DNA of 38,678 nt from a virus: positions 1-38,678 of IMG/VR virus record IMGVR_UViG_3300032087_005120; one strand, written 5' to 3'. The notes beneath the pieces are model-generated. The model was not told the DNA's origin and searched no databases. It saw nothing but the letters and a program-made list of their open reading frames with translations. This document shows, piece by piece, positions 16,873 through 20,517 of this stretch. Numbering within the stretch: position 1 is the stretch's first letter; every line of letters starts with the position of its first letter. Made by a program: the position numbers and the translations under genes.

Positions 16873-17346
16873 TTAGTCAAGTCTTGTGATAGAAAAATTT
16901 AAGGCTTCTGTTATCCCTTTTCTATTCTCCATTGGTATTTCACAGTCATTATATCCTTGAAGAATTGTACTTAAATATCCTTCTCCAGGTGGGTAAACAA
17001 CTTGCTTGTCGACCATGCTGTAAAACATAACCTTGTCATCAATGTATTCACCATCCTCTTTATGAAACTGCCAATGATATTTCTTGGTGTAAAGGTTTGG
17101 ATATCCTTCATAGAAATCTAATGCTGTTTCACATTCGGGTGTTATTTTAAATAGTCCCCCAGGTACAGATTTACCTTCAGATTCTTGAACATCTGCAACT
17201 CCTCTGAATACAAGTTCGTATCCTTGTAGAGTAAATTTGCCTACGTACTCTGACTTAGGACATCTCATTTTCATATGCTTATGATTCATGTTTGAACCAT
17301 ACGCAAAGTAATAACTTACTTTTTCTTTTTGCTTTCTATTAGCCAT
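16873..17346 (-). CDS. Gamma-glutamylcyclotransferase-like protein (AIG2/GGCT fold)
   Basis: 157 residues. YFAYGSNMN (13-21) is the substrate-binding loop of the GGCT/AIG2 superfamily, and the Glu in DFYEGYP (E80) matches the catalytic acid. GGLFKITPECETALD and the later YSTILQGYND-like segment fit the barrel. Members remove gamma-glutamyl groups by cyclising them to 5-oxoproline, or act on gamma-glutamyl amines. It overlaps the helicase stop by 31 bases and so is in the same operon. In recalled gene-neighbourhood analyses, this family appears with amidoligases and class II amidotransferases, which this phage also encodes at 7091-9318. Confidence 0.8.
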   Translation of the reverse strand: MANRKQKEKVSYYFAYGSNMNHKHMKMRCPKSEYVGKFTLQGYELVFRGVADVQESEGKSVPGGLFKITPECETALDFYEGYPNLYTKKYHWQFHKEDGEYIDDKVMFYSMVDKQVVYPPGEGYLSTILQGYNDCEIPMENRKGITEALNFSITRLD

Positions 17347-19314: not shown

Positions 19315-20517
19315 ATGTTAAAACACTTAGATCTATTTAGTGGTATTGGTGGATTTAGTTTAGGATTAGAATCTGCTGGATTAGTTGAAACAGTTGCGTT
19401 TTGTGACTTTGATAAATACTGTCAGCAAGTCTTAAATAAAAATTTTCCTGGTGTACCAGTCTATGGAGATGTAAAGGAATTAAATCATGACAAACTTAAA
19501 GCAGACGGAATTAATCAAATCGACATCATCACAGGAGGATATCCTTGCCAACCTTTCTCCGTCGCAGGTCGCAAAAAAGGTGAGCAAGATCCGAGACATG
19601 TCTGGCCAGAAATGTTTAGACTTATCAAAGAACTCCGACCTACTTGGGTCATTGGAGAAAACGTTGGTGGACACATTAAACTCGGTCTCGACACCGTACT
19701 CGAGAACTTGGAGAGTGAAGGCTACTCCGCAAGGACGTTTAGTATTTCAGCTTCTAGCGTCGGTGCCAACCACAAAAGAGAAAGGGTCTGGATTGTGGGC
19801 TACTCCACAAACAACAGACGGAACGAGAGCACATCAAATTCGCAGACCAGACGAGCTTTCGGACAAAGCGAAGAAGGGGGGATGCGCCAACTTGAGAGAA
19901 CAAGTGATGTGGAGAACTCCAGACGCAGTATCGGGAGGGAGCAATCTTCCAGGAATTCAGAGGGCATTGGACGCTGGTCATTTGAAACGTCCGAGTGGTC
20001 AACCGATACAAATCAGATTGCACGATCAAGTGAGGGAGCCGAGACTATGGCCAACAGCACAAGCGAGAGATTGGAAGGGGAGTTCAGGTCGAAGTTACAA
20101 GGGACTGGAGAGGGACTTACCGACGGCAGTGAAACAATCAATTCTGATGTGGCCGACTCCGACGAGATGCAACGACAGCTTTTATGTGGACAACAGTCCG
20201 AACAAAGACAAGAGACATTCGAGGGGACTAGCAACGGAAGTGGAACACCGTGCGAAGACTGCGATGCTACCAACTCCGACTGTCCAAGACTCAAAGAACA
20301 ACGGAGGTCCTTCACAACAGAAGAGAAACACGAAGCCTCTCAATGCGGTCGCTGGTGGGACGTTGAACCCGACGTGGGTAGAGTGGCTCATGGGGTACCC
20401 AAAAGGGTGGACAGACTTAAATGTTTAGGAAATTCTGTTGTACCTCAAATACCATATGTGATAGGATTAGCGATAAAAGAAACGATAGAGAATGAGCAAA
20501 GTATACGTAACGACTAA
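19315..20517 (+). CDS. DNA cytosine-5 methyltransferase
   Basis: 400 residues with the ordered C5-methyltransferase motifs: DLFSGIGGFSLGLE (6-19), catalytic PC in GGYPCQPFS (Cys78), ENV (115-117), KRERVWIVG (154-162), and the C-terminal VDRLKCLGNSVVPQI. It transfers a methyl group from SAM to cytosine C5, probably to protect phage DNA. The region where the target-recognition domain should lie (about 165-345) is unusual: low complexity, Ser/Arg/Glu-rich, with repeated V/M-x-D/N-S elements (GYSTN, VENSRR, MANSTS, VADSDE). The same bases encode another protein in the next frame. No Shine-Dalgarno is seen before the ATG; TTGCAA (19267) and a TATTTATTATAT tract suggest a promoter very close by. 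Confidence 0.85.
   Translation: MLKHLDLFSGIGGFSLGLESAGLVETVAFCDFDKYCQQVLNKNFPGVPVYGDVKELNHDKLKADGINQIDIITGGYPCQPFSVAGRKKGEQDPRHVWPEMFRLIKELRPTWVIGENVGGHIKLGLDTVLENLESEGYSARTFSISASSVGANHKRERVWIVGYSTNNRRNESTSNSQTRRAFGQSEEGGMRQLERTSDVENSRRSIGREQSSRNSEGIGRWSFETSEWSTDTNQIARSSEGAETMANSTSERLEGEFRSKLQGTGEGLTDGSETINSDVADSDEMQRQLLCGQQSEQRQETFEGTSNGSGTPCEDCDATNSDCPRLKEQRRSFTTEEKHEASQCGRWWDVEPDVGRVAHGVPKRVDRLKCLGNSVVPQIPYVIGLAIKETIENEQSIRND
19487..20428 (+). CDS. Second protein nested out of frame in the methyltransferase gene (WPTP-repeat type)
   Basis: 313 codons without a stop, entirely inside the methyltransferase gene in another frame. AAGGA lies 8 bases before the ATG, a better ribosome site than the host gene's own. 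The product has SGQKCLDLSKNSDLLGSLEK, SRTWRVKATPQGRLVFQLLA, then repeats of W-x-T-P type (LWATPQ, MWRTPD, LWPTAQ, MWPTPT, MLPTPT), and a C-terminal LNPTWVEWLMGYPKGWTDL. I recall this combination from many phage proteins labelled hypothetical or 'methyltransferase'. Each W-x-T-P uses the same bases as a V/M-x-D/N-S element of the methyltransferase. Sampled rows rise to about 45-53% G+C, against 33% at the gene's start. Either a real overprinted gene or a mirror image of methyltransferase conservation. Confidence 0.6.
   Translation: MTNLKQTELIKSTSSQEDILANLSPSQVAKKVSKIRDMSGQKCLDLSKNSDLLGSLEKTLVDTLNSVSTPYSRTWRVKATPQGRLVFQLLASVPTTKEKGSGLWATPQTTDGTRAHQIRRPDELSDKAKKGGCANLREQVMWRTPDAVSGGSNLPGIQRALDAGHLKRPSGQPIQIRLHDQVREPRLWPTAQARDWKGSSGRSYKGLERDLPTAVKQSILMWPTPTRCNDSFYVDNSPNKDKRHSRGLATEVEHRAKTAMLPTPTVQDSKNNGGPSQQKRNTKPLNAVAGGTLNPTWVEWLMGYPKGWTDLNV

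Follow-up and report, generated by a model that had tools for sequence, protein, structure and literature searches.

Our results indicate that one gene of a phage very likely encodes, on sequence comparison, both halves of a two-subunit DNA (cytosine-5) methyltransferase, with the halves sharing the same DNA in two reading frames. The nested +1 frame at positions 19487–20428 is a real gene. Its product, which we call beta, is most likely the half of the enzyme that holds the target-recognition domain (TRD) and motif IX, and very probably determines at which DNA sequence the enzyme methylates. The catalytic half, alpha, is encoded by the outer frame.

The 38.7-kb window (the whole stretch of 38,678 nucleotides that was analysed) is a phage fragment with terminase, portal, primase, helicase and DNA polymerase genes. 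The phage also encodes a GroES-like co-chaperonin (790–1218) and a gamma-glutamylcyclotransferase-like protein (16873–17346). Alpha (19315–20517, 400 amino acids; plus strand, as are all features of the locus given below) is a C5-cytosine methyltransferase with motifs I–VIII and X. It matches Pfam PF00145 (E = 1.5e-45) and phrog_363 (E = 1.1e-80), and its residues 2–164 match M.HhaI in a phmmer search. Motif I (LDLFSGIGGF, 19327–19356) is near-invariant over columns L5–F14. Invariant residues are found in motif IV with the catalytic PCQ (GGYPCQPFS, 19534–19560; P77, C78 and Q79), in motif VI (ENV, 19657–19665; E115 and V117), in motif VIII (NHKRERVWIVG, 19768–19800; H153, R155 and R157) and in motif X (LGNSVVPQIPYVIGLAI, 20425–20475; G372 and N373), which begins at the end of beta. 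By the match to PF00145 and by these columns, motifs I, IV, VI, VIII and X of a C5-methyltransferase are all present in the outer frame. A TRD and motif IX in the same polypeptide are not: motif IX is not recognisable in the outer frame, which evolves neutrally over both positions. As the initial annotation claimed, a 942-base open frame lies inside this ORF; beta (313 amino acids) is defined by that frame, by its match to phrog_1008 and by its dN/dS.

Substitutions were classed by their effect on both frames in an OLGenie-like scheme, in which ALT is the nested and REF the outer frame, with up to 300 pairs per identity band, then 41 disjoint pairs and a bootstrap over pairs. With a simple Jukes-Cantor correction, and with few doubly synonymous (SS) sites limiting the finest ratios, dN/dS in the variable module region (outer codons 165–340) is 0.17 (0.13–0.21) for ALT and 0.98 (0.83–1.17) for REF. 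The outer frame is neutral where the nested frame is constrained, hence the target-recognition region of the methyltransferase lies outside its own frame. The segment of motif IX with LNPTWVEWLMGYP behaves alike (ALT 0.23, REF 0.96). Over motifs IV–VIII, including the motif IV stretch on which the N-terminal region of beta is overprinted, both frames are constrained (ALT 0.30, 0.23–0.38; REF 0.14). Across the whole overlap ALT ranges from 0.15 to 0.30. The flanks that belong to the outer frame only are strongly constrained in that frame (REF 0.09 and 0.18, the latter on the motif X side) and not clearly constrained in the +1 frame (0.72 and 0.70, with intervals reaching 1). The +2-frame control gave an ALT of 1.62.

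These ratios agree with the earlier suggestion that two functional frames are constrained here and that the low-complexity region of the outer protein is owed to the nested gene. The same suggestion took that region for the outer protein's own target-recognition region, which it is not, since the recognition region sits in the nested frame. The supposed low-complexity TRD of the outer frame (19804–20335, opposite the beta modules) is a linker under effectively no constraint, which apparently stays open so that motif X can be reached. AlphaFold2 (AF2) models alpha confidently over motifs I–VIII and the motif X helix, with a pLDDT of about 30–45 over residues ~190–330; the linker between motifs VIII and X is predicted to be mostly disordered.

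Three loci, L177, L193 and L230, serve as a natural experiment. They have motif X in the nested frame; their outer frame ends soon after motif VIII, and the former overlap contains 6–9 outer-frame stops. Both frames are open, with motif X in the outer frame, in 62 of the 73 distinct bacterial loci. It seems that the outer frame stays open for no other purpose than to join motif VIII to motif X.

Relatives that are not nested help to identify beta. In-frame monomers and ordinary split pairs occur in actinobacteriophages. The mycobacteriophages Quico (581 amino acids) and Estave1 encode a single in-frame protein with motifs I–VIII and L-P-T-P modules, followed in the same frame by NPRLAAAFPEWMMGWPAGWVT (EWMMGWPxGWVT) and motif X, GNGV(C/V)PQQ. 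In Peaches, Rebeuca and Float294 there are two ORFs; the first holds motifs I–VIII, and the next, in the +1 frame and with a short annotated overlap, holds the modules, EWMMG and motif X. The motif-IX-like segment of beta (LNPTWVEWLMGYPKGWTDL, 20363–20419) sits at the place expected for motif IX, directly before the outer-frame motif X, and its EWLMG motif is found in the nested frame of nearly all aligned homologues. A profile of this segment matches both the Quico and Estave1 monomers and the Peaches, Rebeuca and Float294 pairs. Against the segment preceding motif X in in-frame monomeric phage methyltransferases the hhalign probability is 98.9%, and hmmsearch gives 2.2e-3 to 4.7e-5 against the monomers, whose own motif IX rests on position and pattern and through which motif IX of beta is assigned. 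The segment also aligns gap-free to LTPRECWRLQGFPDWA of canonical enzymes, with an hhalign probability of 1.4%, the match being too short for significance.

Frames are mixed in some of these phages. Quico (L254:1435–3180) has some P-T-P modules in a +1 ORF (1775–2281) and others in the main frame, and Gordonia phage Trax (L251) has one module in +1 with motifs IX and X in the main frame. Peaches gp76 (L165:1769–2515) and Rebeuca gp79 (L252:1769–2416) have a conserved W..FS.T.PTSGxxR.GRL upstream of the annotated start, inside the preceding gene, so both starts may have been annotated too far downstream. Another long +1 ORF, of about 140–200 codons, occurs in canonical monomeric C5 methyltransferases of Streptococcus and Enterococcus phages and of Methanobacterium virus Drs3. 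It lies over motifs IV–VIII, ends SLSDILExxVxxKYFLS (L166:1595–2020, L262 from 1274, L263 from 1094) and in P0092 bears the annotation of a second "DNA methyltransferase"; a second family of overprinted genes may be represented here.

One could also argue that the nested gene is real and its product a separate protein, for example an anti-restriction factor or a DNA mimic that merely shares the locus. Searches of Pfam, NCBIfam, PADLOC and PDB sequences gave no usable match for beta, and a protein without Pfam or PDB relatives that always accompanies a methyltransferase would fit any counter-restriction role. A weak match to Csf1 (E = 0.05) seems to be fortuitous. AF2 modelled beta mostly with low confidence outside one module, and this poor model gave no Foldseek match at E <= 0.001. 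We nevertheless consider a separate protein very improbable, for the following reasons. First, in the monomers the modules and EWMMG share a frame with the catalytic domain, to which they are fused immediately ahead of motif X. Second, the TRD and motif IX region evolves neutrally in the outer frame, and hence alpha needs its specificity half from elsewhere. Third, beta also carries motif X in the three loci described above. For all 65 of 65 members, beta falls in phrog_1008, which PHROGs labels "DNA methyltransferase", and similar phage proteins labelled "hypothetical" or "methyltransferase", as the initial annotation had it, were indeed found. Annotation is inconsistent among records of Paenibacillus larvae phages: in some, each of the two overlapping ORFs is called a methyltransferase, and in others only one is, or a hypothetical protein is given (L001:1284–2354 and 1486–2190). 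As for the two roles that had been guessed, a methyltransferase partner is the best explanation of the second functional protein, and nothing points to a stand-alone anti-restriction factor.

Beta as a partner subunit could still be made in another way, as a fusion produced by programmed frameshifting from alpha after motif VIII and not from its own start. The frames always differ by +1: wherever both were detected, the C-terminus of beta is +1 to motifs I–VIII, and motif X is in phase 0 in most loci. The order of motif IX and then X is conserved on the DNA as well, so that a single shift, or two, would be enough to regain a canonical monomer. However, the signals of an independent start are conserved. 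In the window, the AAGGA noted earlier lies 8 bases before the nested ATG, within AAAGGA (19473–19478), and the outer ATG has no Shine-Dalgarno-like sequence, again as noted. Of the 116 loci, 110 have an SD-like 4-mer ahead of the nested start, compared to 16% of random positions, and 53 have one ahead of the outer start; the nested start codon is ATG, GTG or TTG, in constant phase. Moreover, the N-terminal region of beta over motifs IV–VIII is under purifying selection (the ALT of 0.30 given above), and a fusion would not need this region. We therefore regard frameshifting as very unlikely and prefer a beta subunit translated from its own start.

All 116 unique viral homologues, a set that includes loci found with the outer protein alone, have an open +1 frame, which spans 166–419 codons; none of these loci has a broken nested frame. 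The longest open run in the +2 frame is 24–80 codons. When the outer synonymous codons of the window were shuffled, the nested frame was open in 0 of 2000 sequences (mean 5.4 stops), and when outer codons were drawn at the G+C of the window it was again open in 0 of 2000 (mean 15.5 stops). The same synonymous permutation left it open in 0–15 of 2000 for 13 diverse homologues. Strict W-x-T-P occurs three times in the window, where 0.42 (shuffled) and 0.07 (window G+C) are expected. The initial annotation had stated that every W-x-T-P is written over a V/M-x-D/N-S repeat of the methyltransferase; this holds for WRTP (VENS), WPTA (MANS) and WPTP (VADS) but not for WATP (VGYS) and LPTP (ATNS). The rise in G+C it reported is there (0.50 in the overlap, 0.37 in the whole window). 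Among the 73 bacterial loci four have one nested-only stop and four one outer-only stop; these single-stop loci look like decaying prophages or draft errors. It is extremely improbable that the nested frame is unexpressed and owes its openness merely to codon choice in the outer frame or to composition, a reading that could draw on the lone nested-frame stops in four of 73 bacterial loci, given that the synonymous permutation already refutes chance openness, that the nested frame is constrained opposite a neutral outer frame, that its Shine-Dalgarno sequence is conserved and that the outer frame gains stops where motif X sits in beta.

The variable part of beta consists of tandem units with a median length of 40 amino acids, which start with W-x-T-P and often end near L-x-x-x-V. 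With a simple pattern rule, whose boundaries can be misplaced (module 3 of the window, for example, is split at LPTAV), 373 modules were parsed in 113 proteins, with one to six modules per protein and 79 different architectures (orders). Common module types have up to 26 different neighbour pairs. Parsed in this way, the window has the order O-D-T-I-J: module 1, type O (WATPQTTDG...NLREQVM, 19796–19909); module 2, type D (WRTPDAVSGGSNLPG...RLHDQVREPRL, 19910–20047), with an AF2 pLDDT of about 90 over residues 151–190; module 3, type T (WPTAQARDWKGSSGRSYKGLERDLPTAVKQSILM, 20048–20149), whose boundary was set by eye; module 4, type I (WPTPTRCNDSFYVDN...ATEVEHRAKTAM, 20150–20266); and module 5, type J (LPTPTVQDSKNNGGPSQQKRNTKPLNAVAG, 20267–20356). 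Close relatives of the window differ in their modules. L125 is 99.4% identical in nucleotides over motifs I–VIII and 97.2% over IX–X and has modules D-A-J, L090 (97.5% identical to the window) has D-P-I-J, and L089 (97.1%) has D-T-I-L-J. Judging by these relatives, whole modules are the units of gain, loss and replacement, on an almost identical backbone. Tandem modules of ~40 amino acids between motifs VIII and IX are a feature shared with multispecific phage C5 methyltransferases, and by analogy each module is probably a target-recognising domain.

We propose that alpha and beta assemble into one enzyme, in which alpha would bind S-adenosylmethionine and perform catalysis and beta would provide the TRD and motif IX in trans. 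Each module would read its own DNA sequence. Several specificities could then protect the phage DNA from several restriction enzymes, and module exchange would change the specificity. The arrangement could have originated from a monomer by frame shifts: the TRD and motif IX part would have moved to the +1 frame, the start of beta upstream into alpha, and alpha would have stayed open across the module region to reach motif X. A broader proposal, on which we are evenly divided, is that this is a widespread phage architecture, in which the specificity subunit lies wholly inside the catalytic gene, in a different frame, and consists of interchangeable TRD cassettes in an array. On this cassette-array reading, every cassette would be open in two frames and so could be swapped into any relative. 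If it is true, then phages rewrite their methylation pattern fast by cassette swaps, while the alpha frame carries the cassettes as a neutral linker.

A scan with one genome per species found relatives in 343 bacterial stretches. The 80 bacterial loci that were kept, a sample gathered with the nested profile and hence favouring loci that carry the nested frame, come from Bacteroidota, Pseudomonadota, Bacillota, Synergistota, Verrucomicrobiota, Spirochaetota, Acidobacteriota, Planctomycetota, Chlorobiota, Actinomycetota and others; they are probably mostly prophages. Paenibacillus larvae phage Tadhana and Lacticaseibacillus phage R9.1 carry the locus as well. A single Roseovarius assembly carries the same nested methyltransferase locus five times on one chromosome record (L218–L222). 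A plasmid search for an EaeI/EcoHK31I-like restriction system returned only nested methyltransferases in prophage-like contexts, with no restriction gene in the stretches viewed.

To our knowledge, two functional domains of one enzyme are seldom overprinted over a long stretch of the same strand. The nested methyltransferase appears to be a large and widespread case, with loci numbering in the hundreds, found in viruses and across at least ten bacterial phyla. Its monomer, split and nested forms are living intermediates and suggest a route of origin. It also accounts for the VADS-type low-complexity "TRDs" and the WPTP "hypothetical" proteins in phage annotation, where often only one of the two genes was called. 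The modules form a natural library with which to test the reading of DNA by C5 methyltransferases and the escape of phages from restriction.

The small-subunit gene of M.EcoHK31I is reportedly nested in its large-subunit gene, in another frame. M.EcoHK31I and M.AquI are two-polypeptide C5 enzymes, and in M.EcoHK31I (YGGCCR) the large subunit has motifs I–VIII and X and the small subunit motif IX (PMC3404938). The division is the same here, with motif IX of beta assigned through monomers. Unlike in M.EcoHK31I as described, where the TRD was predicted in the large subunit, selection here places the TRD in the nested subunit, which is moreover an array of exchangeable modules. Also unlike M.EcoHK31I, this is a phage orphan methyltransferase, with no restriction enzyme noticed. 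In M.AquI (CYCGRG) the specificity part and motif IX are on the second polypeptide (PMC3404938). L177, L193 and L230 resemble M.AquI in having motif X on the second polypeptide, whereas in the window motif X remains on alpha, and hence beta is fully nested.

The multispecific enzymes of Bacillus phages have TRDs of about 40 amino acids each between motifs VIII and IX. Temperate Bacillus phages array several TRDs in one polypeptide and are thereby protected from many restriction systems (PMC12707154). We propose several recognition modules here by analogy with the multispecific C5 methyltransferases of SPR, phi3T, rho11s and H2, but those enzymes are single polypeptides in one frame, and the module array of the window is in the +1 frame. 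Quico and Estave1 are like the Bacillus phage enzymes in having modules in one polypeptide with the catalytic domain.

A hidden HNH endonuclease of the ShiLan type has been described in a mycobacteriophage methylase (PMC11855218). There, too, a second protein in another frame lies inside a phage methylase gene. The ShiLan type is, however, a mobile insertion of a homing nuclease, whereas the nested frame described here belongs to the methyltransferase in every homologue. We reject a homing insert of this type: there is no HNH match among 65 nested proteins, and no homologue with an empty site lacking the nested frame was seen. Literature searches of an open-access subset, which cannot prove novelty, found no description of the nested family in phages. 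The combination looks new: a TRD relocated to beta, shuffled cassettes, a neutral outer frame, a spread over at least ten phyla, and intermediates.
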